A stretch of 64,000 nt of DNA from Gigantopelta aegis (taxonomy: Eukaryota; Mollusca; Gastropoda; Neomphalida; Peltospiridae): positions 5,471,890-5,535,889 of the forward strand of contig NC_054701.1 in the NCBI RefSeq assembly GCF_016097555.1. Direction: 5' to 3'. Every line of letters starts with the position of its first letter. The stretch's first letter is position 1. Both the position numbers and the translations under genes were made by a program. Below, piece by piece: positions 3,697 through 46,702 of this stretch. The notes under the pieces are model-generated. The model was given only the letters and a program-made list of their open reading frames with translations. It made no database searches and was not told where the DNA came from.

Positions 3697-4055
3697 TCAC
3701 AGGGTGTCCACATTCATATAGTTGGGCGATTCCAAACTTTCTGGAGGTTTCGGCATCTCCAAAGCCTCTTCATACGAAGGTGGCAAATCGGATCCCTCCG
3801 ATGATGACCCAACCTCTGTGACTCCCTCACTCGCTCCGCCAGGGTGGTCTGGGTGCAGGTGTGTGTGGCTGTTCAATGGTTCAAATAAAACATGACTCAT
3901 CTCCTCGGGATGTGAAGATGATAAGCGTTCTTTGTTCGCCGGTAAGCGGGTCAGAAGTATGTGATGTTGACCGTGACCCTTCTTTGAAAGCAGATGTCCA
4001 CCTTCCGGGTGGCTTGCGACACTTTCGTGAGAATCTTGCGAACTGTCATGATGAC
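3697..4055 (-). CDS. Gene A exon 5 (cytoplasmic tail, stop)
   Basis: The acceptor is TCTCCTTGTAG|GT, in phase 1, and the stop is TGA at 3699-3697. It encodes 118 residues: a His/Ser-rich start (HHDSSQDSHESVAS), an acidic/Pro/Ser region, PPSYEEAL, then SPNYMNVDTL at the C-terminus. An internal ATG (3900) could open a shorter frame, but the upstream codons remain open and join exon 4 in phase. Confidence 0.85.
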
Positions 4056-7000
4056 CTACAAGGAGAATGACAACTTGTTACAGATCCTCACTAACACAGT
4101 TAGTGATGGAAGTTAGTTTGTTTTGTTTAACAACACTACTAAAGCACATTGATTTATTCATCATCGGCTATTGGATGTCTAACATTTGGTAATTATTCTT
4201 TTGAAGAGGAAGCCCGCTACATTTTTCCATTAGTAGCAAGAGATCTTTGATATGCACATTCGCACAGACAGGATAGCACATACCGTGCCCTATGATATAC
4301 CAGTGAAGGTGCACCGCAGGGCTCAAACTTAACAATTGTTGCCATTGTTGAGATATAAATTGCCATTGGTGAAGCTCAATGATGGCAAAATGTTCACACC
4401 TGGTGTACATTATCTGCCAATATATAACATTAGAACATTTAAAATATATCTACATACAGCAAAATAACCTTTCAGTCTTATTTATTTGCTGCAAAAGTCT
4501 TCTTTTTTTGCAATTGTCATGGACAGCCTTTAAATTGCTGTCGGTGGGCTGTTTTACCCACAGCCATTTGTTTTTAAACGGAGTGGGAGACAAATTCTTA
4601 AGTTCGAGCCCTGCACTGGCTGGAATGAGAAAACATAACAATCATTATCATACCCTACCACCACCATCATCATAATCACTACCACCATTATCACAACCCT
4701 GATAACCACCATCATCATCATAACAATCATTATCATAACCTACCACCACCATCATCATAATCACTACCACCATTATCACAACCATGATAACCACCATCAT
4801 CATCATAACAATCTTTATCATAACCTACAACCACCATCATCATAATCATCATCAATCACTACCACCATTATCACAACCATGATAACCACCATCATCATCA
4901 TAACAATCATTATCATAACCTACCACCACCATCATCATAATCACTACCACCATTATCACAACCATGATAACCACCATCATCATCATAACAATCATTATCA
5001 TAACCTACCACCACCATCATCATAATCACTACCACCATTATCACAACCATGATAACCACCATCATCATCATAACAATCATTATCATAACCTACCACCACC
5101 ATCATCATAATCACTACCACCATTATCACAACCATGATAACCACCATCATCATCATAACCTACCACCACCATCATCATAATCACTACCACCATTATCACA
5201 ACCATGATAACCACCATCATCATCATAACAATCATTATCATAACCTACCACCACCATCATCATAATCACTACCACCATTATCACTACCACCATTATCACA
5301 ACCATGATAACCACCATCATCATCATAACCTACCACCACCATCATCATAATCACTACCACCATTATCACAACCATGATAACCACCATCATCATCATAACA
5401 ATCATTATCATAACCTACCACCACCATCATCATAATCACTACCACCATTATCACAACCATGATAACCACCATCATCATCATAACAATCATTATCATAACC
5501 TACCACCACCATCATAATCACTACCACCATTATCACAACCATGATAACCACCATCATCATCATAACAATCATTATCATAACCTACCACCACCATCATCAT
5601 AATCACTACCACCATTATCACAACCATGATAACCACCATCATCATCATAACAATCATTATCATAACCTACCACCACCATCATCATAATCACTACCACCAT
5701 TATCACAACCATGATAACCACCATCATCATCATAACAATCTTTATCATAACCTACAACCACCATCATCATAATCACTACCACCATTATCACAACCATGAT
5801 AACCACCATCATCATCATAACAATCATTATCATAACCTACTACCACCATCATCATAATCACTACCACCATTATCACAACCATGATAACCACCATCATCAT
5901 CATCATAACAATCATTATCATAACCTACCACCACCATCATCATAATCACTACCACCATTATCACAACCATGATAACCACCATCATCATCATAACAATCAT
6001 TATCATAACCTACCACCACCATCATCATAATCACTACCACCATTATCACAACCATGATAACCACCATCATCATCATAACAATCATTATCATAACCTACCA
6101 CCACCATCATCATAATCACTACCACCATTATCACAACCATGATAACCACCATCATCATCATAACAATCATTATCATAACCTACCACCACCATCATCATAA
6201 TCATTACCACCGTTATCACAACCATGATAACCACCATCATCATCATAACAATCTTTATCATAACCTACAACCACCATCATCATAATCACTACCACCATTA
6301 TCACATCCATGATAACCACCATCATCATCATAACAATCTTTATCATAACCTACCACCACCAACATCATAACAACCACCATTATCACAAACAAGATAACCA
6401 CCACCATCATCATCATAACAATCATTATCATAACCTACCACCACCATCATCATAACAACCACCATTATCACTACCACCATTATCACAACCATGATAACCA
6501 CCATCATCATCATAACAATCATTATCATAACCTACCACCACCAACATCATAACAACCACCATTATCACAACCATGATAACCACCATCATCATCATAACAA
6601 TCATTATCATAACCTACCACCACCATCATCATAATCACTACCACCATTATCACAACCATGATAACCACCATCATCATCATAACAATCATTATCATAACCT
6701 ACCACCACCATCATCATAACAACCACCATTATCACAACCATGATAACCATCATCATCATCATAACAATCTTTATCATAACCTACCACCACCATCATCATA
6801 ACAACCACCATTATCACAACCATGATAACCATCATCATCATCATAACAATCATTATCATAACCTACCACCACCATCATCATAATCACTACCACCATTATC
6901 ACAACCATGATAACCACCATCAGCATCATAACAATCATTATAACCTACAACCACCATCATCATAATCACTACCACCATTATCACAACCATGATAACCACC

Positions 7001-10000
7001 ATCATCATCATAACAATCTTTATCATATCCTACCACCACCATTATCACAACCATGATAACCACCATCATCATCATCATCATAACAATCATTATCATAACC
7101 TACCACCACCATCATTATAATCACTACCACCATTTTCACAACCATGATAACCACCATCATCATCATAACAATCATTATCATAACCTACAACCACCATCAT
7201 CATAATCACTACCACCATTATCACAACCATGATAACCACCATCATCATCATAACAATCATTATCATAACCTATCATCATTATAATCACTACCAACATCAT
7301 CACAACCATGATAACCACCACCATCATCACCACTGTCATAGTTGCACGTTACCTGGATGCAGAGCACCATTACTGTCTGCCTGACATGGCAAGGTTGTGT
7401 AGGCGATCCCGTTGTGTAGTTCCTGTGAACTGTGGACGTGCAGAGCGTTCTCTATCGCGCGCTCCGCCCGGCGCTCTCTCAACACCGCACTCTTCATCCT
7501 CGTGTACTTGACCATGATGAATGCGATGATACAGATCAGGGCTAGTAACGCCGTCGCTATGCCGATGATCACTGCAACACTGGGCCCAGTTTGAGGTGGG
7601 CCATCTTTAAATAAAACAAGCATTCTGAGAATGCTGCTATAGCAATACATGTCTCCTACTGGACCTAACAAATGTTCATATCTTTTACATTCAAGAGCCA
7701 TATCTGGATAAATCACTAAGAATGTCAAACTTGATCTGTAATAGGACATGGTAAAGCTATATATAAAATTTTATCTAAATATCTCAAGGCTCTTTGAAAA
7801 AAAACCATGTGGTAAACTATATGTGGGACAAATGGATGGATGGATAGATGGAGATGAAACCTGTAGTCCCCTCCATTTGGACCAGTAGGGCACTATTAAC
7901 ATCAAATGAAGACAGAGAGAGAGAGATCAGATGACTTCTAGAAGCTAGGTGTTGGTCTCATTATCTATATTACTCTCATGAAATAAATACTACACTATTA
8001 ATGAGTTTAGGCTGACCCCAAAAAGGTATTATCAATATGGCGAATTAAATCAGAAATATGGAGTCAAATTCAAGTTTCATTTAGCCAAACAGGAAAAGTA
8101 GCTGTACATCTACAAATGACTAATTATAGGATATTAAACAAGCTTCCACTTTGTATCATGCTTATGTCCTGAGTGAAATAATTTTCAATTGTCACGAGGT
8201 TTAGCTTTAGAAATGATTTCACGAGGGACATAAACATGATATAAAATGGTAGCGAGTTTAATATCCTATTTATTAACCATAATCGATCTTAATTTATACC
8301 ACTCATCTCGTGTTTTGTCGACGTAAGGTTGTAGTGTGCCAATTGATGACGTCATCATGTGACGTCCCTCTTGGCATTCTAGTGGGACGTATCACTTTGA
8401 CATGTACCAAAATATTGTTAACCATATGGGCAGGGCATCTACAATTGTTTTGTTTTTAATCTAGCCACGATTAAAATTCACTAGCCCTACTTTACTTTAA
8501 AGGGACACACCCTAGTTTCAAGCCGTGAATATTAACACTAAGTTTAGTTAAAGGGACAGACCCTAGTTTCAACCCGTGAATATTAACACTAAGTTTAATT
8601 AATCTACAAACCTGTAACACATTTGGATAAAGTTACAATTGAGTGAAACATGAGTCTGTGACTTTGAAATGGTGAAATACCCTCTAAAAATAGACTAACA
8701 CTTGACTCCATAACTGTTATTTCTCAGACGCACATGAGTTTTAAAAATATGAAAAATGCATTTTGTGATATTAAAAACACCAGGATGACCAAAAACACTT
8801 TGAATGTACGGAAATTGATAATCTAAACCATAAAATCTAAGTAAAGTATGATTTCAGTTATGAAAAAAGGCTATAATAGTCCTTATTGTTTAAAAACTAG
8901 GGTATGTCCCTTTAAGTTAATACAGTTTTACTAAATAATAGTAATAATCAGATATGTCACCTAAAGAGGGAGATGGAGCTTAAAAAGACTAACATTAGGG
9001 TGGAGTGGAGTCAGTATATTCATATTTACTAAATAATAGTAATAATCAGATATGTCACCTAAAGAGGGAGATGGAGCTTAAAAAGACTAACATTAGGGTG
9101 GAGTGGAGTCAGTATATTCATATTTACTAAATAATAGTAATAATCAGATATGTCACCTAAAGAGGGAGATGGAGCTTAAAAAGACTAACATTAGGGTGGA
9201 GTGGAGTCAGTATATTCATATTTACATTGAATATCACTAGCCACGGCAGTGGGGCTACGGTAATCTAGAAGCCCTCCATATGGGTAATAAATGAATATAT
9301 CCACCAAGTTTATTGTCCTTTTGGTGAATAGCCTATTATATTATTAAATATTGTAAATACTATATAGTTATTTCTGTGTCTATTTAAAAACAAAAATCAA
9401 TATATTATTTAACTGGCAGCAAAACACCCAATATAATTCATATATTTTCTCAATTTATTTTTATCCTATATATATTTTATTAAATGAACCTCCAGTAACT
9501 ATAGACACATTGACAAAAGAATAATCAAATATAGACTTTAGTAGGATAGGCTATTAAGCAAGAAAACATAACTTTAAACCTGATGAACAGACAACATTCT
9601 TCACTATGGAAGAGTATTGTTATTTTATTTATACACTGACAATTGTTTTTACAAACTGCATTTGAAAATAGAACATTTTTGTTATTTCCAACAAACTTTC
9701 TTTTCTATTTACATGGAGCCAAACTAAAATAACTGAAAGAAAACACTAAAAAATGGAGGCTAGTACAGAGAATAAATTTAATCTTCAATAACTTTCATTG
9801 CAAGCCCAAAACAATGGGAATTATTGTGAAAAATCAATAAACGGCAAAACAAAACTGGAAACAATGAGAGAAAAAGATACAATTCTACCCTGATCAGACA
9901 CTTTTTTTACAGTGTATATAAAACAAGAGGATTTTGTGACATACTAAAGCCCCATTGTGGCCACAAAATACAAAACAAAAGGAGAAAGAAAAAAACATGT

Positions 10001-13000
10001 ATTAATTTCACAGAACATTCCTACATCATGTTAATTAAGTTAAATATAATTACAAAATTTCCATGTTTATACATTTATTTCCTCAATTCTGATTGGACGA
10101 CATCGAAAAAACCCAGAATGTTATCCTGCTATAAACCTCAGAAAATGAGGTCATTACGCCAGCTGGAACGTCATTACGTAAAACAGGCCATGGAAAGGAA
10201 GCTAGAAGCTGATTTATGTGTATTTTAACTCACTATGGTGTGTCCAGGCGCTTGTGCATACATTTTAGAAGAGGGTGGGAGCTAAACTGTGGCTAGTGAA
10301 ATTTATGTGTATTTTAACTAACTATGGTGTGTCCAGGCGCTTGTGCATACATTTTAGAAGAGGGTGGGAGCTAAACTGTGGCTAGTGAAATTTATGATGG
10401 GTAAAGACATGCTTCCCAGGAAAAGTATTGAAAAAAAGAGAACATTTGTTTGATCAAGAAGAGGGTTCGACTGCCGTAACCCACCCTCTGCAGAAGCTCC
10501 TGTCTTTGAAATAATATAAAATCTGTTTGTTATTTTTTAAATGAATTTATCAATGTACAACTGTCACAAACTGCATAAAATTGTGTAGTGTAGTGAAGAT
10601 TTTAAACTAAACACCTCATAAAATAACGTCATTACATTAAATGGGATGTCATTACGTAACGCAGATCATGGGAAGAACGTTAGAAACTGACTGATGAATT
10701 ATGAGTAGTTTTAACCAAATAAGTTTAATTGTTTGTAATTATAAAAATTGTACGTTATTTTTTGCTAATTTATTGACGTATAGCAGTCACAAATTTAGTA
10801 TAAAATCGCGTAGTGTAGCGAAGCAATTTTATACAATTTGTGACTGTTATACATCGATAAAGTTGCAAAAAATAACGAACAATTCTTATATAAAAGATGT
10901 GAAAAATGTCAGTGAGTTCCGATTCATTTTGTAAGATCAGGTCAGAAACGACCCTATAAAAGTGTTTACCCGACAATGAAACATTAACTCGGAAGTTATA
11001 GTTTCTGAGATAAATATCTTCTCTAGAGAGGGTCACCCGGACACTGAAGTCACGAGATGCGTACAACACACCAGGACTAGGATCAGCACAACTCAGCTTC
11101 ACCTGCAACAAAGTAACGGCCACATTTAGGAAAGAAAATGATGTGTTTCTTTAGAAACTCACCAGCACATTTTGTATACTACAAGTACAGCTTTTAGATG
11201 TCTTCATATGAAGCAACTGTGACAAAGGAAAGAAATGTTTCATATTTAATTATGGTTATATGGCACTGGATGTATCGTTTAAGGTTGACGACAGTCACTT
11301 TTCAGACTCTTGTTTTGGCTTCGTACACAATAAATAAAACATATTCTACGGTAATTTTTTGATATGATATATTTGACAAAAGGTCTTTTTATTTCTTTCA
11401 TCTTTTAAAACTTCAAATTAATATTTGGTCCAGAATTATGAAAAAAACACAAAAAACCCTGTAAACAGCATTGTCTGTTTGTTATAGAAATTCGACAGGG
11501 GTCAACGTTAATAGACCAGTTTTTATTTTAATGTCGTAAAGCATTGTAATAATATAGCAGTGTTCGAAATAAGTACTTATTGTTTGTCCTGACAAGTGCA
11601 AATCTGCTGGGACAAGTAAAATGTACCTCAATGGTTGTCCAGTGGACAAGTACAAAATGTCCAATGCATTTTGTTTTGTTTGTGTTTTGAGATATTTTAT
11701 TGATCAAAAAAGGAATCAAAAGGATTGCACAACAGGCAGAGCCTATATAAGTGGTCTCCCAAACAAGATGGACATCAGACAATATTCATAATCATATATA
11801 TAAAACATAATAACAATGTCCAATGGCATAAAATATTTAACATAATGCATTTTCATTTCGAGTAGTCAAAAACATTGTCCTTGTACTTGAATAGAACAAA
11901 CCACTTAATTGGACAAGGGAAAATATTGGTGGACAAATAGATTTCTAGATGTACTTGTCTGGTAGATGAGTGAAAAATGTTGCTCATTTCTATCAATGTA
12001 TAGCTAATTTTGAATTTGAATGACATCAGTATTCCAAATGATGTCACTTTGCATCTCCTTACAATAACCATAACTGGGTACATGACGTTTTCAGTTTAAG
12101 AATGCTGGAAAAATTCCAATGCAAAATTGCTATTCAATTATTTTTTTTGGAACATTATTAATGCACCTGAATGTGTTTCAAGAAAATCCTGTGATTAAAA
12201 AAGTGTACCGTGTACGAAATATGGATTTCAAGTGAAATTACGGTAAGATATGCTATATTTATTGCGTACAAAGCCAAAACAATGGTGCAAAAAGTGACTG
12301 TCGTCGACCTTAGGACCACACAGTTAATGAGAGAGAAAACCTTCTGTGCTACACAACAAACAATCTTTTATATTCAGCATCCCGCAGACAGGATAGTTCT
12401 GGAGCACTAAAGTCCAAACCAAATTGTTAACAACTATGATAAATTACTCTCCTGCCTTCAATTACTGTTAGATTTTTTGTCTAAACAGAAATCATGAAAA
12501 AAAACATTACAGTGACATACAAGACTGTAATAATGTCATCGATATAGACTTTGCTGAGATCGCATACGGAAAACTACATAGTTTTTCACTGTGTGCCATT
12601 TAGCTTTTTTGTGGAATACTGTTCAAGAGGTGTGGAAGTATGTGACAGTTAATCTGATGTCATGATGAGTGCATTATACCCAAGCACATGTCATGACATT
12701 GTTAGATTACGTTATATCGACCCAACCCTTTTGAAGAGTATTCCATAAACAAGCAAAATGGCAGACAGCAGAAAACTGCATGTATTTTCTTCTATGCAAT
12801 CTCAGCGAAGTCGATGTCGGTGACATCAGTACAGTCTTGCATGTGGAATCAGTGTCACTGTAATGTTTTTTTCACTATTTGTGTGGAAAAAATTTGGGGG
12901 AAATCTAACGTTAATTAAAGATAGAGTAATTTATCGTAGTTGTTAACAATTATGGTTCAGACTTTAGCAACTGCAACAAATGATCTCAAGAGTCAGAGAA

Positions 13001-15627
13001 CAAACCTATTGCCACCACATAGGCTACCCTTACTGATTACAAAGGCTTGTTTATATGCAGCATCCCACAGACAGGATAGTACATACCACAGCCTTTGATA
13101 CACCAGCTGTGGAGCACTAGCAACTGCGATAAATTATCTCAAGAGTCAGAGAACAAACCTATTGTCACCACATAGGCTACCCTTACTGATTACAACAAGG
13201 GCTCTTTTATGAACACTTTTCAACAGACAGGTTAGCCTGGGACCTGATTAATTAAACTCCTTCAACTTTGCGTTCTTGCAGTGCAGTACAAAAAGATATA
13301 TACAGATGATGCAATGTTGGTTACGAAAGCATATGAGGGCTTGGTGAATTAAGTCCCAGTTATGCAGAAATGGTTGTGAAATAACCCAACAAGTCATCTA
13401 ATTAGTCACAGTCTGCTCACTGGACAACCTAACTAGACTCATGTGTCAAAAATGGGCCTCTGTGGCATCGTGGTTAAGCCATTGAACATAAGGCTGGTAG
13501 GTACTGGGTTCGTGGCCCGGTTCCAGCTCCTACCCAAAGCGAGTTTTAACGACTTAGTGGGTAGATGTAAGGCAACTACACCCTCTTCTTTCTCACTAAC
13601 CACTAACCCACTGTCCTGGACAGACAGGCCAGATAGCTCTAGGTGTGTGTCCAGGATAGCATGCTTGAACCGTACTTGGATATAAGCACAAAAATGAAAC
13701 GAAAACAAATTTGTCAAATAAAAACATTTTTTAACCAATTCATTAATAGAATAATGCTTGAAAATTTAATTTTAAAAAATAAAATAAAAAATAGTTGAGA
13801 AGTTAAATAATAAATTAGGATGTCAATCTGTTTGGTGATATAAGATATGAACTGTTTTGTCTCTGTAACAAAGGATGTAGACTCAAGTATTGAAAGAGGC
13901 TGTCACTAACCAGTTGCTGAACGTCACTATTAAACAAGCTGGTAGACGACTGGGTGATGGTCAGTGTGATATCACAGTCATTGATGTAGAAGTTGTCAAA
14001 CTGAAGCCGCAGCGATGAATAGCCCATGTCGGACACCGGACTGAACTGTATGGTACAGTTCTGGGCCGCTGCGGCACTGTTTGTTGGCGTTTTCTTGCCA
14101 ATGATGACCATACTCTTCTGGTCCTCCACAAACACTTGGTGCACCGACTTCAACAAACACACCTTCTTGTCATCCATTCCATCTGCAAGAACCGAGCAAA
14201 CGCAAATCACAGTTAATGAGAAAAATGTACAACTCGGTGAGAAAAATGTACAACTCGGTGAGAAAAATGTACAACTGTGAGAAAAATGTACAACTCACTT
14301 GTGACAAATAGGTAATTACAATGATTTACACAAAAATGAGAACAAGAATTCTATATGGCATGTTGTTAAAGAGACATTCCTAACTCTGTAGCTAATACAT
14401 AGGGCTCATTCTGCCCATTGACAAATCCAATTCCTACATTTTATAAGTGGCTACAACATATATCGTTGAATTTACGAAGCCTGTATTTCATGAACACTGT
14501 CATTTATAAGCAGAAAACCCCCAATCAGCTCAATGGATCCACGGAGGTAGTTCGATCATGCTACGCAAGCACCTCAGACGAGCTCTCAACCAACTACGCT
14601 AAATCCTACCCACTGATCCTAGTTAATACAATGTGTAAAATAGTGTCGGCAATTACAACTTTTAGCATTTAATAACACATTCATTATAATGCCTAGCTTA
14701 AGTTATCACTTTTATTAAATCCAATGTATTTCTGGTCATCTTCATGTTTGTAGTACCAAATATTGTCATGTTTTAGTCGACTTTTGTCGATAGGCTGGCC
14801 CCTTAATATCTGGCACAAAAAGATTGGCAGCTGACATGATGTATACATTTTTACAATTCAATTTATTACAAATCAGATAAAAATAGTATCAAGTACTTTT
14901 CATGAGAAATACAAGTGCCTTGTAACATTGTTTCTCACAGTCTGTTCACACTTGTAAGTCCTATTGGAATTTTCTGATGTATTTGGAATTTGCCAATTGT
15001 TAACTGGTTTTGTACCATCTTTTCATTAGTTATTGATGATCATGACATTTTGTTACGCCAAACAATTATTTTCCTTTTAATAAAATGTTTTACAAAGCAC
15101 AAATCTATTTTATGGTAATACATGTATGAATTTACATGTTAAAAAATAATTTTAGTTTGGCAAACATGTGGTTGTAGTCAATTTTCATAGTGACCATATT
15201 ATCAATGATATAATGATTTTAATTCTGGAAAATCAAAAGCAAATGTTGAGGATTTAAACCAGGCGAAGTCTGGTGACACAAAGTCTCCATTCTGTCCATA
15301 TCATGATCACTGCAAGAACATGTCACAGACTTATACACTGAGGAGAGGAGGTGGTGACAGTTGCATATACATCCCCCCAAATTACCAATGGTCCACATTT
15401 TTTCTAGCAAATTTAGATATTGATACATAAACAGGTGGGTTTTTTTTAGCAACTGTTAGTCCTATCACAGGAATTTGCACCCCCACCTCCAATTAAACAC
15501 CCTGTGTACGGGCCTATGTGATCATCAGATTTCCACACTTACATGACGGCACACCCGTCCACACGTCTGTGACAACTGAATGCAGCAGGTAGACCAATGT
15601 TACGCAGGTGTTGTAGAGTTTCGTCAT
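3697..15627 (-). CDS. Gene A: type I membrane protein with a CUB-like ectodomain (5 exons, 366 aa)
   Basis: The coding exons are 15627-15543, 14182-13911, 11102-10970, 7604-7353 and 4055-3697. All introns are GT-AG, the phases 1-0-1-1 match at every junction, and the total of 1101 nt closes on a TGA. Residues 1 to about 22 form a signal peptide with a hydrophobic core around CVTLVYLL. Residues 30-163 form a CUB-like domain with four cysteines (37, 71, 98, 124) in CUB spacing and a sequon at N70. The transmembrane helix spans about 173-195, followed by the basic stop KYTRMK. The tail (196-366) holds His/Ser-rich stretches, a PPSY motif at 339-342 (a WW-domain ligand, Nedd4 type) and YMNV at 360-363 (a YxNx Grb2-SH2 type site) close to the C-terminus. 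The likely role is a cell-surface receptor or adaptor; the ligand is unknown. No gene name is recognised. The same exon plan recurs in gene B. Confidence 0.85.
4116..4325 (-). mobile_element. SINE fragment in intron 4 of gene A
   Basis: It shows gtttgttttgtttaac, catcggctattggatgtc, cccgctacatttttccatta, agatctttgatatgcac and gacaggatagcacatacc in order. This is the tail half of the common SINE in reverse orientation. It starts about 60 bp into the intron after the acceptor side of exon 5. The tRNA-like head is absent. Confidence 0.85.
4625..7320. repeat. 85-bp minisatellite, about 30 copies, within gene A intron 4
   Basis: The unit begins taacaatcattatcataacc and continues with Cat/Acc triplets (ccaccaccatcatcat, aaccatgataacc). 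Most copies are exactly 85 bp. Some lack taacaatc..., and others carry tandem changes of the catcat or accatt blocks. It fills most of the 3.3-kb intron and stops about 30 bp from the exon 4 donor. The frames it opens on either strand are products of the repeat, not genes. Confidence 0.95.
7353..7604 (-). CDS. Gene A exon 4 (transmembrane helix and juxtamembrane tail)
   Basis: The acceptor is TTATTTAAAG|AT and the donor CATCCAG|GTAACG. Phase is 1 in and 1 out. It encodes a short stalk (DGPPQTGPS), a 23-residue hydrophobic helix and a basic region KYTRMKSAVLRERRAER, fitting type I topology with the tail inside. The donor is only about 30 bp from the end of the 85-bp minisatellite. Confidence 0.85.
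8347..8354. promoter_or_regulatory. Perfect CRE palindrome TGACGTCA
   Basis: A consensus cAMP-response element in intron 3 of gene A, followed 6 bp later by a half site (tgacgtcc). Whether CREB binds is inference; such octamers also arise by chance at about this scale. Confidence 0.3.
8497..8915. mobile_element. TTAA-flanked MITE, short version
   Basis: It is flanked by TTAA at 8497-8500 and 8912-8915. The left terminus agggacacaccctagttt and the right terminus aactagggtatgtcccttt are inverted copies. The first 51 bp are duplicated (a second terminus starts at 8548). There is no coding capacity. TTAA target duplications with a CCCTAG-type terminus suggest mobilisation by a piggyBac-type transposase (inference). 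It shares termini and interior with 17326-18122. Confidence 0.85.
8929..9224. repeat. 98-bp unit repeated three times
   Basis: The unit begins actaaataatagtaataatc and contains gtcacctaaagagggag and gtggagtggagtcag. The three copies look identical, so the expansion is recent. It lies in intron 3 of gene A. Confidence 0.95.
10213..10396. repeat. 89-bp tandem duplication
   Basis: The two near-identical copies contain ggtgtgtccaggcgcttg and gagggtgggagctaaac, differing by one base (actcacta against actaacta). They lie in intron 3 of gene A. Confidence 0.9.
10753..10877. mobile_element. 125-bp palindromic element beside exon 3
   Basis: The left arm cgttattttttgc ... gtcacaaatt ... tataaaatcgc and the right arm gcaattttatac ... 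gtcacaaatt-complement ... gcaaaaaataacg pair over about 55 bp around a loop gtagtgtagcg. A second, half-length relative lies at about 10530-10605, and the segment 10140-10210 resembles 10615-10700. This points to an older duplicated cluster of the same MITE. It ends about 90 bp from the donor of gene A exon 3. Confidence 0.8.
10970..11102 (-). CDS. Gene A exon 3 (second half of CUB-like domain)
   Basis: The acceptor is TTTGTTGCAG|GTG and the donor TCGG|GTAAAC. Phase is 0 in and 1 out, 133 nt. It carries the fourth cysteine (VKLSC) and ends in a strand YNFRVNVSLS, a typical CUB finish. Gene B exon 43071-42942 is its counterpart, with 130 nt, the same phases and the ending YKFSIMVTT. Confidence 0.85.
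11282..12310. mobile_element. TA-flanked element with about 90-bp inverted termini
   Basis: The left end aggttgacgacagtcac, continuing through ttgttttggcttcgtac, reappears inverted at the right end (gtacaaagccaaaacaa ... gtgactgtcgtcgacct). TA stands outside both ends (11280-11281, 12311-12312). Inside, gacaagta/gtccaa-rich blocks form a second, weaker inverted pair. There is no transposase frame, so it is a non-autonomous TA-target (mariner-like) element by inference. It is located in intron 2 of gene A. Confidence 0.75.
12410..12964. mobile_element. 555-bp foldback (near full-length palindrome) element
   Basis: The arms of about 250 bp pair along their length: aagtccaaacc / ggttcagactt at the ends, ttgttaacaact, aaattactct, acattacagtgaca, gctgagatcgcat and aatactgttcaag each have inverted partners. 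TA flanks both ends. The unoccupied version of the same site occurs at 13110-13135 (gagcactagcaactg), which proves the boundaries and the TA duplication. Confidence 0.85.
12967..13196. repeat. Direct duplication of about 153 bp including a SINE fragment
   Basis: The sequence gcaactgc(a/g)a ... ctcaagagtcagagaacaaac ... cacataggctacccttac occurs at 12967-13042 and again at 13119-13196. Between them is a reverse-oriented SINE piece (tttatatgcagcatcccaca ... cctttgatacacc). A further decayed piece of the same SINE lies at about 12330-12409 on the other side of the foldback element. Confidence 0.8.
13439..13690 (+). mobile_element. tRNA-derived SINE, second family
   Basis: It has a tRNA-like head with an A-box-like gtggttaagcc and a B-box-like ggttcgtggcc, then aggctggtaggtactgg, ctcactaaccactaaccc, actgtcctggacagac and the tail ggatataagcac. 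Other members are at 36545-36800 and 47815-48020 (reverse) and 62510-62715 (forward). It lies in intron 2 of gene A, 220 bp from exon 2. Confidence 0.85.
13911..14182 (-). CDS. Gene A exon 2 (first half of CUB-like domain)
   Basis: The acceptor is TTCTTGCAG|AT and the donor CTG|GTTAGTG. Phase is 1 in and 0 out, giving 90 full codons. The exon carries cysteines 37, 71 and 98 and the CUB-type hydrophobic strand LRLQFDNFYINDCDITLTI. The frame stays open past the donor, so the end rests on the donor and on phase agreement with exon 3. Confidence 0.85.
14217..14298. repeat. 21-bp repeat, four copies
   Basis: The unit gagaaaaatgtacaactcggt is repeated just upstream (on the minus strand) of the acceptor of gene A exon 2, about 35 bp from the splice site, where the branch point would be expected. 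Confidence 0.9.
15543..15627 (-). CDS. Gene A exon 1 (signal peptide)
   Basis: The ATG at 15627-15625 has G at -3. The exon encodes 28 residues with a hydrophobic core and ends T|GTAAGTGT, a near-consensus donor, in phase 1. An earlier ATG on the same strand (15658) is out of frame and would overlap the start as a small upstream frame. Protein length and the closing phases favour 15627. Confidence 0.8.
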
Positions 15628-19978: not shown

Positions 19979-21190
19979 TCACCGACTGTAGATTTGTTTT
20001 CGTGTTGGGGCCTTTGTCAAAGTAATGTATAGAAAGCGAGAGTACGTGTCTTTAAATAACTTCCATTGCAATGTCTCCATGTTTCTTTCGATAGCTTCTT
20101 GGGACATGCTTTTTACTTCGTAGCGTTTCCTTTTGCTTTCGAAATAGTTACGATTGATGTCGAATTCACGCTCGACCATCAGAGGTACGCCTTCGTTTTC
20201 CAGATCGAGCGACGGCTCTGCTTCATTTCCCTCCTCGCACCATTAAAATTGCAGATGTCACTGCAAGTCGCTTTCGTCTTTAAAGACCAGACTACACGTA
20301 TCGCAAGACTGCATCCTCTTGACTTTTTTCAGATAGGGTTTCTACCTCATCATCTTCTTCGTCGTCACTTTCGTAGGCGGGTATGCTTGGTAGTTTACAC
20401 TTGAATGCGTCCCTTTGCGTGATTTGCATGTAGAGCTCTTTCTCTGACGGTGGTTGCAACTCTTCGGAGACATTCGCCGTTACGTTTGGACTTTTATATC
20501 ATTCGGACGGTCCCGTCTCTAAACCATTAGGTCGAAGTCGCCAATGTTCGGGCGTGGTCGGTTTCAAATCCACCAAGAGATGTCCGTAGGGCCTGTGGGT
20601 AGCTTTCTCAAACCGTTGCATGAAATGAGTGTTTTCCAGATACAATCTGCCGTGACAACGTCAGAACTTGCTGCTTATCGATGGGGTTGTTGAACAGTGC
20701 CAAGTAATGGCAGTTTCTTCTCTGTGTCGGATCTTTGCTGTGATAGAAGTTATGGTTGATGGCAATCACTGATAGGTTTCTGTGGTGACTTCCTTCCGTG
20801 AACAGGTCGGTGATGCGAGAATCTTTATTGGCCATACACACCAAGTCGTTCAACACGATGAGATTTCTGACTAGGATCCGAATAATGATCCTTTTACAAA
20901 TTCTCAGGTATGCCTTGAACGAATTTCACTCGAATGGTTGCCCCAATGATGTTGTAGAGGGGTTACCATCGTTTGTAGAGCCAGATGATGCGTTGAGGCG
21001 GTGGGAAGATTTTACCATCCCTTAGCATTTTGTATACCAAAAATGTCTTTCCACACGAAGTGGGTCCCAACACGATCATGGTGAACGGATGTAACAATCT
21101 TAGGGGATGCTGCTGCTGCTGCTGCTGCTCCTGCTGCTGCTGCTGGGAAGGTTTATTTTCAGATTCCAAGAGGCCATGTTTATTTTGTAT
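19979..21190 (-). pseudogene. Broken A32-like (FtsK/HerA) packaging ATPase of a virus-like or Polinton-like element
   Basis: Read from 21190 leftwards. A Gln-rich N-terminus is encoded by a CAG run at about 21109-21145. A P-loop GPTSCGKT lies near 21065, then RIIWLYKRW; a Walker-B-like LIVLNDL near 20855; the conserved segment DSRITDLFTEGSHHRNLSV; and RRNCHYLALFNNP. The family motor packages DNA into capsids. It is inactive here. In-frame stops lie at 20963-20965 and 20894-20896. The frame shifts between 20894 and 20856 and again near 20640, and the start ATG (near 21178) is in another frame from the P-loop. The Walker B acidic residue reads N. Further left, a stop-interrupted zinc-finger-like CDTCSLVFKDESDL (about 20270-20310) and a Lys/Arg-rich frame (20179-19979) probably belong to the same element. 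No capsid or polymerase is seen nearby. Confidence 0.7.
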
Positions 21191-21287
21191 GTGTCAAGTT
21201 AGGTCGTGGGTCCAAACATTTTTGTTTTCGCAAATGTGACACTGATTCATGATCTTGTCTGTTCATATATTCAACGTGAAATGACGT

Positions 21288-36544: not shown

Positions 36545-36800
36545 TTCCATTTTCCATTTATTTTGTAGCTTACACCCAATTAAGATCCAAGCACGCTATC
36601 CTGGGAACACACCCCAACTGTCTGAACTGTCTATCCATGGATGAAAATACTTGTATAGTGAGAGAGAAGTCAATGTAGTGCTTTTACACCTCCTAATTAA
36701 GCCGTTTAATACAGTTGTAAGCGGAAGCTGGTACTGAGACCTGAACCCAGCACCGATTAGCCATAAAGCCGATAAGTTAACTACTATCCTACCGACACCT
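36545..36800 (-). mobile_element. tRNA-derived SINE, second family, reverse
   Basis: It shows caagcacgctatcctggga, cctaattaagccgtttaa, agctggtactgagacctgaa and the head complement aaagccgataagttaactac. It is the reverse of the copy at 13439-13690. It lies in the presumed 3' region of gene B and supplies a minus-strand AATAAA near 36560. Confidence 0.8.
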
Positions 36801-37030
36801 TCCCCTAGTTTCACGTGCGTTAATCCTTATTAAGATATCATGCACGTGCACGTCGCTATCATGACAAGATGAAGATCACACTCGACAACAAATCATCGTG
36901 TTAGTTCGTCTGCAATACCAGGATACTGATCAACAGAACGTCCTCGCGTTTATGTACTTTGTTCGGAAGTCTGTTGGAAGAGCCATAGAAAAATACTCAA
37001 ATCGTAATGTGTACAAGCGAGGTCCGTGAC

Positions 37031-37770
37031 TCAAACCTGACTCTGGAGTTCCTTCTCCCTGCCTGGAAGTCCCGACAAGTCATACGACACACGCTTACTG
37101 GCGCTTCGACTACTGCTCGTCGAATCGTCACTTGTTCTCGATTCTTCGTAACCTTTTTTATAAAACCTATACACACCGCTAGAGCCCATGGCATCTGGAT
37201 CCACTGTGGGCCGCCTGCGTTCCGACGACCTTGATGACCCAGGCGACCTTGACCTATGCGAACCATGTCTACGACTGTGACTCCCACCGCTGCCACCACT
37301 GTGACGACTCGATCTGCTTCGCGGAGACTCCGATCCGTGATGGTGTCCGCCATTGGACGATCTGGGTCTCCGTCTGGCCGGTTTTCCTCTGGGATCATTG
37401 CCGTCACGGCTGGTCTCGCTCGCCTTCCGCTTCCGGTCGAGCGATCTGCTGCGCGCACTGCCGCTCCTCTCCCGACTGATGGACCCGGTGGTTGGCTGGT
37501 ACTTGCTGTACTTGTGTCCTCCGCCAGACGTCTGGCTGTCCGAGGAATCGTACTCGGACGTCTCGAAGCCCTCGTTGAAGACGCCCTTCCCGTCATGCGC
37601 GTCTGGGTTGCGTCGTCTGCCTCTGTTCGTCTGCTTGCCCTCGAAGGCGGGATTCGGATACACGTAGTTGTTCTGTCCCTCGTTGGAAGACATACTCGAG
37701 TTCCTGCTGTCGGCGTCCTTGTTCTGCGCGTACCGGTCAGGGTGGGATGGGAAAAGCACTTGGGAGGCAG
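37031..37770 (-). CDS. Gene B exon 5 (distal tail, stop)
   Basis: The acceptor is TTTTAATTCAG|CT after a long pyrimidine tract, phase 1, with TGA at 37033-37031. It encodes 245 residues: a start VLFPSHPDRYAQNKD, YVYPNPAFEGKQTN, acidic FETSEYDSSDSQ, then dense RS/SR repeats (SRERSGSARSRSLDRKRK, SPRSRSSRHSGGSGGSHSRR). G+C is far above the flanks, as expected for a real exon. Assignment to gene B rests on strand, phase and matching composition. Confidence 0.75.
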
Positions 37771-38559: not shown

Positions 38560-38590
<31 letters not shown>

Positions 38591-41500
38591 AGTCAGTCCA
38601 TCTGTTATAAAGAATTTGAATAGTCAAATTTATTAATCTATGTATATTTTTATCAGTAACACGTTAAAATGAAACAAAAAGAAGAAAAACGGTACAAACA
38701 GGCGTTTAATTGTTTTAAAAAAAACATCGAACAATACGGAATGTACTAAAATTATTAACTAACAGTGAAAACTATTATTGTGGAATTTCTATGAGACTTG
38801 CAATGTAAAGTTTTACGTTTTGTGAGAGGCACCATGAAAAAAATAAACTATTATAACTACAGTAAGGTCCAAAACGTTACATATTAGTATATGCTTATGT
38901 TTCAAGAAAATAAAAAAATTATCAATAGAATGATAAATGCGGTTCCGCTTATGAAAGTGCGTTCATATCTAAATACACGTACATGTATATATGTTTCAGA
39001 GAATACCTATTACCAGAGATTATGTATAATCCTTGAACATTCCAGGTGATGTGTGTAATGTCTGATTCACCTATAGTCCGTCCCACAGGGAACGCCTTTT
39101 TTCATGCCAAGAAATTTACTACAAGTTATTTAATTCTGAGCTGATTGATATTTGTAAATTTGACACAAAAATAGTTTGTTTTTTTGTGGGGTTTTTTGTT
39201 ATCACTTTTACTTCTCTTCTTACGTCAAACCAAACTTACATTATTTACAAAACACACTTTTGTAGAAAGATGGGACGGACTATAGGAATATGTATAATGA
39301 TCACAGAAAAGTTCAGTTATTATACAAAATACCTGAAATTTAGTCAGTTATGTTATACATATTTCCAGAAAATGTTTCATCGACAATTGTAGATCAAAAT
39401 GTTAAATTTCTAGACGTTTATATTTTTATGTCAGAGGCTAATAGAACATCGAAACACTTACATGTTTGTGTTACATAGATAAACGTTCGGGTCCTACTTC
39501 TTCCTTCGAGATAGCGTGACGTTGACAAAACGGTGTTCGAGATAGAGAGAGTTTATTGTAATTACACATTTATAGGTTTTTTGGTCTACAATTATGGATG
39601 AAACAATTTCAAGGAATATGTATAAAATCACTTTAAATTTCAGGTATTATGTATAACAACTATAATTGTCAGGGATTATACATAATTCCAAAGTGAATCA
39701 AACATTACACATATAACGTAAACCCTTGAGGGATTATACATAATTCCTGATAATACGTATTCCATGTAACATACACAAATTGATAATGTTAAATGACAGC
39801 ATGTATGACGGTGAATGACATAAGAAGCAACTGTAAATAATATAAAACATGATTGGTAATCATACAAATATATACAAAAATACACTTTACAAAGGGTATA
39901 TTGACGGGGTTCGAACTTACTGCACCAATTCGTATAGCATTTGATAGTCCGTAATATTAAATGTTCATCACCGTTCAACCAATGGAAATACATTTAACAT
40001 TCTGGAAGCGCAACAGTTCTTTTATTATACATGTAGCCAATCGGATGCTTTTCTTGTGAACCAGCCATCAGCACTATGTTACTGTGTATACTAAAATATA
40101 CTGAGACAAAATATTTCATTGGAAGTACTTCCAACCTATAAATATTGGCCCTTGAGCATGTGGTCGCTATATACATTGTATATTTTAAAACATGCTCTAG
40201 AATGCGGAAAAGAAATGTCCTTTGTATGGAGGTGGGTGTTATTCAATGTTTCCTTCACAGAGGTGTAACTGTACGTGTTTCTCTAAACATATTCATAACA
40301 CAACCTCACATAATTATATTCAAGAAAGTGTCAGAATTGGGTAAAACAGAATCCTGATCGATATCGTTTGTTGGGTCTTACGTTTAGGTCAAGTTAACAT
40401 TTCAGCCCGTGTAACGAAGAACTTAAATCTGTAGTCAAAGTGTTCCCTTTTGGGCAAATAACTAGACACTGTATGTGTACTCCTTCCTGTGAGCATTCCA
40501 GTGCAATCGTTTCCGATCTCAATGTTTCATAAACTGTAGACCTATTTTGTCTTCAGTGATTACAGTTTGACATTTTAAGACGTGCTCCTTTGTAATTTTC
40601 GCATAATAAAAAGGGTCAAACCATCGTTTGACAAACTATTCTAACGTATTGGTATTAGGTCAGTCTAACGCTTTAGACATTAACCACAACTGCCACATAT
40701 TGCGTTGGCTAGTCTGATATTGTTTCGGTTAGTCTGATATTGTTTCGGTTAGTCTAGCGTTTTGGAATTTGACCACGATTGCCATATCTGGCATTGATGT
40801 TGAGATCACCAAGCGTCTTTGACTGTTTCTCTTTCCTGGAACCAGTGTCTCTATCTCTGGAAGAACTTCTCTCGGGGGTCTGTCTCCTGACACTGCCAGG
40901 CGAAGGTCGGGTTTCTCTCTCTGCGTGCCGCCGTGGGTGGCTGTTATCCCAGTATGGAGACTCAGTGTGCCGCCTTGGGCGGCTGTTATCCCTGTATGGA
41001 GACTGGCTTCGTCTGGGGACACTGCCTCCTTCTCTGCGAGAGTCTCTTCCAGCAGACTGACGCCTCGAGTTGTCCCGTCTCACGTCATCCTTCCTCACAG
41101 AATGCCCTCTTGACTGGCTGCCCCTTGGGAACTCGAAGTCTTCGTATTTTGTCGACGACCTGTCATCCCTTGTGGAACGATTCCTGGGACGGCTTTCCCG
41201 TTCTCGTGGGAATTCGAAGTCTTCGTATTTTCCCGAATGTCGATCGTCCCTTCTCGAATAAGTACCGTGTGGATAATCATATTCGTCGTATTTTGACTGT
41301 TGACGTTTAGCGTTGCCCTCCTGTCTGTAAGATCCCTTTTCAGAAGGTTGGCGCTTCGATGTTTCGCGCCTGACGTCATTGGTCACTGCTGACTGTTTCT
41401 TGTAATTCCTTCCATCCATGTCGTCGTCACTGGCCGGATATCGTCTGCTCTTTCCAGCAGACTGTCGTTTAGGATCTGCTCGTTTGAACTCCCCGCTTTT

Positions 41501-42869
41501 TTCAGACTGCGGTTTAGAATCTCGGCCTTGTCGAGCGCGATCGTAGTCGTCGTAAACCGGAAACTCTTTGCTCTTCTCCATGGAGTGACGCTTGGGAGTA
41601 TCTCGTCTAAACTTGTTGTGTTCCACCGGGTACCCGCCACTGCTGCTGTCTCGACTGAAGGCGTCGTTTTTAAACGTAGCCGGATGTCTTCCATACTGAT
41701 CCTTGACGATAAAAATGTCGGACTCTTTGTGATCGCTTTGAGAAACCTGGCTGTACGTCCTTGTTGAAGGACTGGGTTTTGGAGGGATAAAATCTCTACC
41801 TATGTGCACTTTGGAGTCATTGTAATATTTTTCCTTACTTGATGAATACACTGTTGATCCTGCATTGGTAGACCCTGCTTCCCTTTCCTTGGACAGTCTC
41901 TTCCTCCTGTGTTTGATGATACAGTAGATAGCAATGCCGACTAGCGCTAGAAAGATGAGACCACCTCCGATTGCTAGTCCAACAATGGCACCGATTGTAA
42001 GAGTCTGTCCATAGTATTCATTAACATTCTGCTCGAAGTCGATGTTTGGACCTGCAACAACAAGTAATTATTATTATACTGTATTCATACAGCAACCAAG
42101 ACAGGGTTGTACCTAACGGGTGAAATATTGGCAAGAAGGCAATGGCTTCCTCCCAGAAATATATATATATATTTTTTAATCTGCCCATTAAACAAAAATA
42201 TTATATTGCTGTGTCCCGATTTAGTTTTAGTTTTTTATTGCCCTCCACGGTCGCCCTAGTTATTTTCCGCTAGGTACTGCAATTAGGGCTGCAAGAAGGA
42301 TATACATGGTCTTTAACTGCATCTATATTGAAGATATTTTTTCTCTCGTTCTCTCTGTGTTAGACATTTAACAGCTGTTGAATACATTGTACGCTTGGGG
42401 GAGAAAAATACTTTTAAAATGTATTTATTTATTATTTATTTTGTTTGTCATTAAAAACAACACTTCAGTTGAATACGAACCTTTAACAAGCAATTACCTA
42501 CCTAAAGTGGCCATTTTGTTATTCTCTCAAAACATCTATGATTAAGCACTCACCTGTCTTAAGAGGTCACTTTAATATTGTCCCAAATTAATAATGTAAC
42601 GTTGATTGTTTTGGTGGGGGGGGGGGGGGGATGCTTTATATTCGTGACTGTTTTATATAGAGTTCACTGTCATTTTAAACTACACATGTCTATATGTTGT
42701 CTAATTAATGTACACTAAATAACATTAAATTTGAACAATAGAACCATTAACATATTCACGCTCGTTTGACAGAATCCAAAGGATGTTTTGGACATGAAAT
42801 GCATTATAAATTGTGTGTGTTATCGATACTTTAAATCCTCCATTATAGAAATATACATCGTTTGAAAGC

Positions 42870-42906
<37 letters not shown>

Positions 42907-44006
42907 AAAGTCATATAAATTAAACTATAATGTGGTCCTACCTTGATCAGTTGTGACCATGATGCTGAATTTGTACGTCCTCGCCGACGTGGACTGTTTG
43001 ACCAGTTCAAACATGACAGACGTTTTCAGCTCCCACCTCATACCTGGGCCATCATCGCTCGTTAGAACGTGCTAAAATATAGGTAAAACACATAGCCTAT
43101 ATATGTCGTATGTGTACATAATTATACAGAAAACCAACACAAAAATGTAAATAAAAATACAGTACATAAACGCATAACCCCAAAACATACTTAAAAACAT
43201 ACAACAAAAATATTTAACAATTTAAACTTAAAAGCATAACAATATAAAATATACAAAAACAAAATGTGTACATGAATTAAAAATCTGTAAACCTGACATT
43301 AAGAACCTAAAAGGGTTACATCTTACAATATGAACAGCTTTCAAAAAATGTAATCCCGAGAAATTATTAAAAACTGAAATTTTAATAAAACTGAAATTTT
43401 ACGATTGTTTTTAACACGACGGTTGGTAGTTTTAAATGGATTTAATTTTTTAATGTGGATTTAAATTCACTGACATCTTAAAAACAATTTGAATAATACA
43501 GAGTACGTTTTATGTGGGAAGCCATGCTAAGAAGGCATGCTTTGAGTAAAGGAATTATTGATAGCTATAGGAAGTGTTTTCTTTAACTTTTTAAAGTATG
43601 TTTTCAATTAAATATTGCAGTTTAACACTAACACTATGTATATAACACTAAACCTTTCCAAGTGGGCCTTGAAACTTAATATTATCATACGTCACTCCAT
43701 TTCGTTAACAAATATTTTATAGAACTGCATTTTCTTTCATATGTTTATCCCTTATTAACGGACTTTATCAAATAACTTAAAACAAACACAATTACATATA
43801 AGTAAAATATGCAAAATAATGTAGGCCTACTCATGGGCGTACATAGGATTTTGAAAAGGGGGGTTCCAAAATAGATTGCAGAGATATTGGGCATATATTT
43901 CTATGTTGAGTAAATATAATAATGTCAGATATCAATGTCAGATATATTAAATTATAAAAAAAGCGATTTCAGGGGGGGGGGGGGGTCCGGTCGAACCCAT
44001 CGAACC

Positions 44007-44041
<35 letters not shown>

Positions 44042-44433
44042 TATGTACGCCCATGCTACTGTATCTTATAACGGTTTAGAATCAGTACAAATAGCCATGC
44101 AAATTATCATTTTTAAGTAATGTCATCATTGGATAAGGGAAATGTGAAGGATAATTGCAAACTACATAATATTTGTTGACTGCTTAAGTTCGCTCAGTAA
44201 GCATTGTCTAAAACACCCGATCTAGAGTGATCATGGAGATAAATAAACTTCAAGTATCGGTTCAAAAACTATCGTTTTGACGAAAAACCATACGCCGTCA
44301 TATTTATCATTTCATGGTGATTAGTCTACTAACTACCGGTACGGTAAACGGTAAATATTCGACATTGCAAAAATATTCATATCCGTGATATTATCAGCCA
44401 GGCTGTCAGGTCTAGAACACGCTGGTCTGCTGG

Positions 44434-44510
<77 letters not shown>

Positions 44511-46702
44511 CAGATTTAATTGCTTCCTTGTTAGAGAATAATTGCACGTATTCACTTCTAATGATGACTCACAACTTATTTACTGCTTCGTGAATGGGAT
44601 CTATAGATCTAAGATCAGCTACAAGTTGTCTCATGATACTTCATATATAATTTAATGTTAAATTCGTAGTTTAAATGTGGAGTAAGTTAATTTTGTATTG
44701 GATACCGTACAACACTTCATACCACACCACACAACACAATACTACTTGTTTAGTTATTTTCATTTGATGAAAATGATCTTAAATGCACACATTTGTGATT
44801 AAATGTTATTGGTGATGGTGATAAAGGATGCTTAGATAAAACATGTATTTGTCATTAGTTTCCTGCATGAAGGTGACTGAACGCATTGCCATGTTTGTTT
44901 CCGTTAATACGATTAAGTCAAAGTGTAAAGATACTATCCGCATATCTTATGCAGTGTGCGCATGCCTAGAACATTTCCCGGAAGCATAAAATCCAAACAC
45001 AGCGAATATACTACATTACCATAAATGGTTGCATGCACTACTAGTAGTAGTTTATGACCACACACAAAAAAACCGTTCTATTGTTAAAATATTTCAAAAT
45101 GTGCACAAAACATATTTTCTTCTCCAAAGTAGTCGTTTGTATATCTATAGGTAAAGTACCAACAGATGTTTAAAATGGTTGTACAGTTGTACAGTATACA
45201 TCCCAGTGTGTTCAGAATATTTTGACATGAGACTTTGTACAATTTAATTTTTGTTATCTATTAATATAATTTTCAGCAGCAATAAAAATGATTTCTAACT
45301 GCATATGTATGTGTGCATTGACAACCAATCCCTTAATAACCACACAATTCAGCAGAATCTCACATTTATTTATTTATCACTTTTCACGTAATTGTACATT
45401 CGGGTTTGCCCCACAATCACAGAACCATGACAACAGCATACGACGAATACAGCCTACTAATAACTGTGCGACAGTATATTAATCACCACGATAACCGATC
45501 AACATGCAAGGCCAACTCAAATACTTTACATGCCTTTCTGTTTTGTGGCTGGAAACAAAATAAGAAAGAAATACCTAATTAAACGTTGTTCTGAAGATCT
45601 TGTTGGAGACAATCTGCTATAGTGGCGATATATATCTTAATCATCGTTCTCATTGTTATCGTGAATATCGTTATAGTGATCATCGTCATCATCATCATCG
45701 TAATTATCATTACAATCGTAACTGTCACCATCATCATCATTATGTTCATAATCAGCAGTATCGTGTTATAGTAATATACATCATCACATTCATTATCATC
45801 ATATCCAAACATTTTACAATTTTTTATAGTTTGAAAATAAATAATTCATTATGATTTATTGAACTCCTGTAATACACAGGGTTTATTACACATATGATTA
45901 GTATTTATGACATAATTATATGTAATATACACTGTACGTTATATGCATAATTAATACCCCCAAACTACTCACTATACAGTAGATACAGTGACGCATGTAT
46001 GTAATACACACTGTACATTTTTCACACACAATATGCACTATACATTATACATTATACCCTGTTAATAATACACACTGTACATTACATACACGATTAATAC
46101 CCTGTAAATAATACATACTGTACACTTCAGAAATGATTAATATCCATGTAATATACACTAGTCATTTCATACATTATTAATAGTCATGTAACACACACTT
46201 TACATTGCATGCACATAATTATTAATACCCATGTAATACACACTATACATTACCTGTATTATTAATACCCATGTAATACACACCGTACATTACGTGCATT
46301 ATTAATATCATGTAATACACACTGTACATTACATGTATTATTAATACCCATGTACATTACATACATAATACCCATGTAATACACACTGTACATTACATAC
46401 ATAATACTCATATAATACACACTACATTACAAACATGAATGACATCATGTCGCTTACCCTGGGATGGGCCGATGATGTGCTGTCGTACACTTTGAGTTGA
46501 ATGCCGCGGTCGTTGAACAAGACGTCGGTGACGTAGACGAAGAGTCTTCTGTTTCCGAGCTCCGCCCTCAGCCTGATGACGCACCTATCACGTGACCCGG
46601 AGCCGGCGTTTTGAAATGGCGGATTTGCCCACACTTTGACAATGTCTAGGTCGGTAACAGTATAATCACCAGCATGGTCGCAGTCAGAGCTTTCCATGTT
46701 CA
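37031..46702 (-). CDS. Gene B: CUB-like membrane protein with giant Ser/Arg-rich tail (5' exon missing)
   Basis: The exons found are 46702-46458, 43071-42942, 42051-40810 and 37770-37031. Phases are 1-0-1-1, identical to gene A, and the sum plus one upstream base equals 786 codons including the stop. The ectodomain has two cysteines (SSDC, DRCVIRL) and CUB-like strands (RLFVYVTDVLFND, GIQLKVYD, YKFSIMVTT). It lacks the two later cysteines of gene A. The transmembrane helix is LTIGAIVGLAIGGGLIFLAL and onward, followed by KHRRKRLSK. The tail is about 600 residues, highly charged and probably disordered, with RRxS and RS blocks, repeated KYEDFEFPR and SPYxDNSxPRRH units, and YVYPNPAFEG. The signal-peptide exon, expected to end in phase 1, was not found upstream. 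The likely role is a surface receptor paralogous to gene A; the function is unknown. Confidence 0.75.
38560..38590. repeat. (TCTG)n microsatellite
   Basis: About seven units, with decayed copies (tccgtcagtcag) following, in intron 4 of gene B. Confidence 0.85.
39070..39286. mobile_element. 217-bp MITE with 16-bp perfect inverted ends
   Basis: cctatagtccgtccca at 39070-39085 is the reverse complement of tgggacggactatagg at 39271-39286. The TATA inside each end suggests a TA target duplication with TIR tagtccgtccca (mariner-like, inference). It sits in intron 4 of gene B. Confidence 0.8.
40810..42051 (-). CDS. Gene B exon 4 (transmembrane helix and first tail half)
   Basis: The acceptor is TTGTTGTTGCAG|GT, phase 1. 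The frame is open to a TAG at 40756-40754, so the 3' boundary is the weakest call in this gene. Three GT sites keep phase 1 (after 40810, 40777 and 40774), and TTG|GTGATC at 40810 looks best. If none is used, the protein ends at GQIPKR. It encodes the stalk, the TM helix, the basic anchor KHRRKRLSK and about 360 residues of Ser/Arg/Asp-rich tail. Confidence 0.7.
42875..42902. repeat. (TA)n microsatellite
   Basis: About 14 TA units in gene B intron 3, 40 bp from the donor of exon 3. Confidence 0.9.
42942..43071 (-). CDS. Gene B exon 3 (second half of CUB-like domain)
   Basis: The acceptor is TATATTTTAG|CAC and the donor GATCAAG|GTAGGA. Phase is 0 in and 1 out, 130 nt. It encodes HVLTSDDGPGMRWELK and ends ARTYKFSIMVTTDQ. 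It is the counterpart of gene A exon 3 but without its cysteine. Confidence 0.8.
43832..44055. mobile_element. TIR element with paired G-run and C-run
   Basis: catgggcgtacatagg (43832-43847) and cctatgtacgcccatg (44040-44055) are exact inverted copies. The interior has a run of about 14 G (43972-43985) and then about 35 C (44007-44041), which can pair or form quadruplex/i-motif structures. The duplicate aatgtcagatat at 43921-43946 is internal. It lies in intron 2 of gene B (the intron between 46458 and 43071). Confidence 0.8.
44434..44503. repeat. (TA)n microsatellite, about 35 units
   Basis: A pure TA array ending in cacagacag, in the gene B intron between 46458 and 43071. It can extrude a cruciform. 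Confidence 0.95.
45860..46430. repeat. Diverged about 36-40-bp repeat array next to gene B exon 2
   Basis: Variable units of the form catgtaatacacactgtac followed by attacatacattattaatac recur about 14 times with many indels. It is an older array than the others. It ends about 25 bp from the donor of exon 2 (46458). Confidence 0.8.
46458..46702 (-). CDS. Gene B exon 2 (first half of CUB-like domain)
   Basis: The acceptor is TTTTTCTCTGACAG|TG, an excellent tract, and the donor CCCAGG|GTAAGC. Phase is 1 in and 0 out, 245 nt. It matches gene A exon 2 in position and phase and encodes strands RCVIRLRAELGNRRLFVYV and GIQLKVYDSTSS. Where gene A has its third cysteine (YINDCDITL), gene B reads FNDRGIQLK. 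Confidence 0.8.

Follow-up and report, generated by a model that had tools for sequence, protein, structure and literature searches.

CUB domains typically contain four conserved cysteines that form two disulfide bonds. In the type I membrane proteins Neto, SOL-1, SOL-2 and LEV-10, they contact or cluster partner receptors, and Drosophila Neto is made as two isoforms that differ in their intracellular part, as described in those sections of the source that deal with this class (PMC9083331). Here we analyse two genes, A and B, from a 64,000-nucleotide stretch of DNA (the window; NC_054701.1, positions 5,471,890 to 5,535,889) of Gigantopelta aegis, a peltospirid snail of deep-sea vents. The two genes lie 21.4 kb apart, both on the minus strand. 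We favour the reading, to which we assign a probability of a little under 0.6, that they go back to an old tandem duplication and encode type I receptors, each with a single divergent CUB domain, a transmembrane (TM) helix and an intracellular tail, which would act as co-receptors, with gene B switching between two tails. Among the papers listed by literature searches, none dealt with this pair as judged by title and the opening of the abstract, and none joined a CUB domain with Gigantopelta.

The likeness of A and B to the Neto/SOL/LEV-10 class is functional only, and we do not place them in it. While the members of this class possess two to five CUB domains, which Neto, SOL-2 and LEV-10 combine with an LDLa domain, as given in the same sections of the source (PMC9083331), A and B each possess one CUB-size ectodomain, of about 135 and about 125 residues respectively, and neither has the two or more CUB domains by which the class is recognised. 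What gene B does have in common with Neto, as the latter is described there (PMC9083331), is a pair of isoforms with different inner parts. Neto2 is found among the PDB structure matches of both the A and the B model, and no Neto was found among the listed matches for either gene in PDB sequence searches. The CUB domain of Kremen is one part of a longer chain (residues 212-322, in a 294-residue chain record), whereas the ectodomain of A consists of the CUB domain alone. Spermadhesins, in which a single CUB domain makes up the whole chain, are the best VIA match of both ectodomains; their solved chains, however, have 109-116 residues and no TM part, whereas in A and B a TM helix and a long tail follow the ectodomain.

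When the exons of the two genes were joined at GT-AG sites, they were found to reproduce, letter for letter, the NCBI proteins P0001 (gene A) and P0006 and P0007 (gene B). Gene A corresponds to LOC121367432 (366 amino acids), its spliced model matching the protein at 100% over 100%, and gene B to LOC121367434. The spliced model of gene B agrees with isoform X2 (469 amino acids) at 100% over 100%; with isoform X1 (584 amino acids) the agreement is 98%, over 77% of the part used in the search. Thus, both genes are already in the public annotation, under NCBI names and, for gene B, with two isoforms, although an earlier note on this DNA had expected annotators to miss them. The misleading name given to isoform X2, ‘filaggrin-like’, probably has its source in the serine-, arginine- and glycine-rich tail of that isoform.

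The two genes follow a common exon and phase plan, in which exon 1 encodes a signal peptide and ends in phase 1, the ectodomain is split between two exons (phases 1-0 and 0-1), the TM exon has phases 1-1, and the tail is entered in phase 1. From the ectodomain onwards, this plan had been described in the earlier note, and every exon that it listed was found to be present, with GT-AG borders, the phases it gave, and exon 3 lengths of 133 and 130 nucleotides (nt). In gene A, exon 1 (15543..15627, 85 nt) carries the start codon and signal peptide and agrees exactly with residues 1-28 of P0001 and one further base; exon 2 (13911..14182, 272 nt) encodes the N-terminal part of the CUB-fold ectodomain with C37, C71 and C98; exon 3 (10970..11102, 133 nt) its C-terminal part with C124; exon 4 (7353..7604, 252 nt) the TM helix and juxtamembrane region (helix 173-229 in the AlphaFold 2 (AF2) model); and exon 5 (3697..4055, 359 nt) the cytoplasmic tail, with PPSYEEAL and YMNV near its end, and the stop codon. 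In gene B, exon 1 (61195..61276, 82 nt), which holds the start codon and signal peptide and agrees exactly with residues 1-27 of P0006 and one further base, lies about 14.5 kb upstream of exon 2, beyond the range of the earlier note. It is followed by exon 2 (46458..46702, 245 nt), encoding the N-terminal part of the CUB-like ectodomain with C35 and C68, and by exon 3 (42942..43071, 130 nt), encoding its C-terminal part, which contains no cysteine. In the X2 form, exon 4 (41839..42051, 213 nt) encodes the TM helix and is joined to an X2-only exon 5 (37031..37770, 740 nt), which supplies the alternative serine-, arginine- and glycine-rich tail with NYVYPNPAFE and a stop codon. In the X1 form, exon 4 is terminal (40754..42051, 1298 nt), encoding the TM helix and a long arginine-, serine- and aspartate-rich tail as it runs on to a stop at 40754, inside the X2 intron. 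All these exons lie on the minus strand. The listed exons therefore stand, while their count is ten for A plus B-X2 rather than the nine first given, in which X1 was overlooked. AATAAA motifs are found 728 nt past the X1 stop and 469 nt past the X2 stop, positions that fit the ends of the two isoforms, although they are no proof in such A+T-rich DNA.

The introns of both genes contain repeats. In gene A, the last intron is largely taken up by a tandem array at 4634-7329 (170-bp unit, 16 copies), and the 14.5-kb first intron of gene B holds large minisatellites at 51777-52901 (85-bp unit) and 53911-56376 (39-bp unit). A copy of an interspersed repeat of about 330 bp, at 46703-47047 on the minus strand, stops about 10 nt short of the exon 2 acceptor in gene B, and may thus supply part of that splice site. 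With its own row counted, this repeat gives 17 blastn rows in the window, of which some are perhaps pieces of one copy; by eye its 5' part looks tRNA-derived, as in a short interspersed nuclear element, and ARAGORN calls no tRNA in it.

At the level of sequence, a BLASTP alignment of A and B spans 158 residues, of which 23% are identical, and owes part of its strength to the TM helix (E 7e-7, as a single comparison); the overall identity in a MAFFT alignment is 16%. The TM part alone (score 47) was matched by none of 2000 shuffles and the ectodomain alone (score 48) by 4 of 2000, and a profile-profile comparison by hhalign, with the TM part included, gave a probability of 90.6. In addition, the gene B ectodomain scored better with all six ectodomains of the A family, i.e. 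gene A and its relatives described below (z 2.4 to 6.3), than with any of eight classical CUB domains from solved structures (z -1.5 to 2.1). When an A-family profile built without gene B was scored on 1878 stop-to-stop pieces, exon 3 of gene B ranked next after A's own exon with the exon 3 part of the profile (E 0.024, or 0.03 without P0001). Furthermore, the internal intron of the ectodomain is in phase 0 in both genes and at a place in the alignment that is equal within one residue, being four residues before the fourth cysteine in gene A. This sequence kinship, weak but recurring, together with the four equal intron phases, the common intron place, the similar predicted fold and the adjacency of the genes, supports the tandem-duplication origin suggested previously, and we consider it likely, if unproven, from these sequence comparisons that A and B arose by an old tandem duplication.

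In its AF2 model, the ectodomain of gene A takes up a CUB beta-sandwich fold with confidence, and its C37, C71, C98 and C124 are invariant in all six A-family proteins, giving the four cysteines of a typical CUB domain. The ectodomain of gene B also models as CUB-type, albeit weakly (mean predicted local distance difference test score (pLDDT) 43.1, with ectodomain blocks of about 46-66), and contains only C35 and C68, having R and T at the places of C98 and C124. A CUB-type fold is thus predicted firmly for A and only provisionally for B. Pfam scans of the spliced A and B gave nothing taken as real, and no domain beyond the ectodomain was found in the scans or models. The best weak Pfam match (LapA_dom, E 0.0011) was seen in only one of five A-family members and was set aside, as were the matches from PDB sequence searches, all of them weak, in which the A-family profile hit TM helices such as that of sodium channel beta-2.

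Relatives of gene A with the same architecture were identified in five other gastropods, namely Haliotis (P0002), Lottia (P0003), Patella (P0004, already named CUB domain-containing in UniRef), Physella (P0005) and Biomphalaria (P0009), which for gene A contradicts the suggestion that the pair is lineage-specific. These proteins are relatives of A, from which gene B differs in being without PPxY and without two of the four cysteines. For gene B, the proteome search proposed by the earlier note was less fruitful, with one search (at most 100 short words per search) yielding nothing apart from the isoforms of B itself and P0008, an unnamed protein of 376 residues that begins near the TM exon. 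Since gene A shares 47-48% identity with its Haliotis relative and 16% with B, either the split is old or B has evolved very fast. In the A-family profile search, the 7993 candidates sharing most words were scored and Patella P0004 was lost, so the search does not show absence from bivalves or cephalopods.

As previously stated, the tails of A and B are without obvious common sequence, BLASTP finding only scraps (E of at least 2.9) outside the ectodomain-TM alignment. Within the A family, however, the last 29 residues form the best conserved stretch, with 13 of 29 positions invariant in all six gastropod proteins (59-78% identity to A), compared with 20 of 135 in the ectodomain (25-52%), 8 of 65 in the TM region and 2 of 108 in the mid-tail, which drifts (13-22%). 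The invariant block, present in six of six proteins including A, consists of PPSYEEAL followed by YxN near the C-terminus. No PPxY was found in P0006, P0007 or P0008, and gene B, being without this C-terminal block, is taken as a paralogue outside the A family. Nevertheless, its X1 tail is 63% identical to P0008 over 365 columns, and X1 exon 4 is 68.9% identical to P0008 by tblastn. The conserved C-terminal block of A and the retention of the B X1 tail in P0008 thus argue that the tails are constrained, though unlike between the two genes, and not subject to the free evolution that had been proposed for the intracellular part.

On the favoured reading, both proteins have a signal peptide, a single CUB-fold domain that is divergent, a single TM helix and a cytoplasmic tail that is disordered, and the CUB domain would bind a protein partner in the manner of a co-receptor. 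PPxY is a WW-domain motif and phosphorylated YxN a GRB2-type SH2 motif. The invariant PPSY of A is a putative WW-domain site through which a NEDD4-type ligase could set the surface level of the receptor, and the YxN near its C-terminus, once phosphorylated, a putative GRB2-type SH2 site that may serve as a signal exit. Gene B would combine one ectodomain with two tails, either by splicing of exon 4 to exon 5 (X2) or by read-through to the intronic stop (X1).

Instead of being duplicates, A and B could be CUB-type genes that are neighbours by chance, their common plan being simply that of an ordinary CUB module, with two exons flanked by phase-1 introns. Two-exon CUBs are common in this genome, where scoring 150 of 277 candidates gave 131 Pfam CUB matches, a large share of which are half-domains and none of which lies inside the window, and phase 0 was the commonest internal phase, being the best-scoring one in 6 of twelve classical two-exon CUBs, with phase 2 in 4 and phase 1 in 2. 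These twelve are pairs of adjacent half-domains, obtained by applying a simple splice-site score to 41 of the 131 matches; several of the best scores were low, and four of the six phase-0 cases came from one C11 cluster. (At C11:10384890-10515451, we observed Pfam CUB matches following one another densely on one strand, often as half-domains, which likely make up one cubilin-like gene or cluster.) Since this half-and-half plan is ordinary in the genome, the informative part is the common place of the intron, which in A and B seems, as read from the alignment by eye rather than computed as a position, to lie further along the domain than in the twelve sampled CUBs, where it is found at profile positions of about 47 to 68. 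Taken with the better scores of gene B with the A family, the extension of the alignment through the TM exon and the closeness of the two genes on one strand, this makes a chance neighbourhood unlikely. Several results nevertheless weigh against a duplicated pair of CUB receptors. In addition to the low identity between A and B, some A-family ectodomains score with a classical CUB domain about as well as with B (for Lottia, z 5.4 with cubilin5; for A itself, z 3.0 with cubilin7 and z 2.7 with cubilin5), so that their kinship with gene B is not sharply set apart, and the Physella ectodomain matches B weakly (equalled by 35 of 1000 shuffles, and by 29 of 1000 in a second run). In the profile search, exon 3 of B stands out mildly only, while its exon 2 is at chance (E 0.93, and outside the six matches listed when P0001 is omitted), and the whole-ectodomain profile rates an unrelated piece at 10698-10931 (E 0.097, 0.073) like B exon 3 (E 0.076, 0.095); for the ectodomain of B in spliced form, comparison with 5000 shuffled versions gave E 0.018. 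Finally, the weak model of gene B has a bacterial collagen-binding domain at Foldseek rank 1, and neither A nor B matches Pfam CUB (PF00431) at E 1, so we call the domain ‘CUB-like’ and do not file it in PF00431.

The version put forward in the earlier note, of a recent, lineage-specific duplication followed by free intracellular evolution, would account for the dissimilar tails and for the single recognised relative of gene B. It is highly improbable, however, given that five other gastropods have A relatives in which the C-terminal block is kept, that A is far closer to the Haliotis protein than to B (the split being old or B very fast), and that the X1 tail of B is conserved in P0008. A different role is conceivable, in which A and B are innate-immune or symbiont-recognition receptors and not co-receptors of host proteins. 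The part of the Gigantopelta genome paper that treats them states that this snail hosts two endosymbionts and exceeds the scaly-foot snail in its number of recognition receptors (PMC7895826), yet CUB occurs nowhere in the main text of that paper (0 occurrences; PMC7895826), relatives of A occur in Lottia, Biomphalaria and other gastropods, and the genome searches given below revealed no expansion; we therefore regard this role as quite unlikely. A bolder combination, which we hold to be very doubtful, would place A in an old gastropod family of single-CUB signalling proteins that has no Pfam model, and would make B a fast-evolving, possibly peltospirid-only copy with one disulfide lost and two splice-switched tails, perhaps used in symbiont recognition.

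Genome-wide, gene A found its own five exons only, and gene B its five exons and then only matches in C5 (E 2.3) and C7 (E 4.6), which were too weak to be taken as copies. With the Haliotis A protein, four exons of A were recovered, along with weak matches in C6 (E 0.36, one stop) and C897 (E 8.5, two stops), which were likewise not taken as copies. Since A and Haliotis A miss B at E 10, and B misses A, an equally distant third copy would escape such searches. In the 20 kb on either side, where further copies had been thought worth seeking, none was found, the best match of nine proteins by tblastn having E 0.72 over 14 residues and that of an A-plus-B profile E 0.37. Within these limits only two copies are seen, rather than the small receptor family previously envisaged.

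Between the genes, at 20608-21193 on the minus strand, lie two open pieces, next to each other but in different frames, that look like a packaging ATPase of viral type, possibly of the kind found in Polintons and adintoviruses. The first piece matches Pfam Adeno_IVa2 at E 0.0016, short of the cut-off, and the second matches nothing. PHROGs gave no match for two pieces from between the genes. Searches with Rfam, at gathering score, and for tRNAs found nothing.

In summary, the analysis corrects a tempting story, in that the tails of A and B are constrained rather than free and the gene pair is annotated already, and it exposes a group of gastropod receptors whose CUB nature is missed by Pfam.
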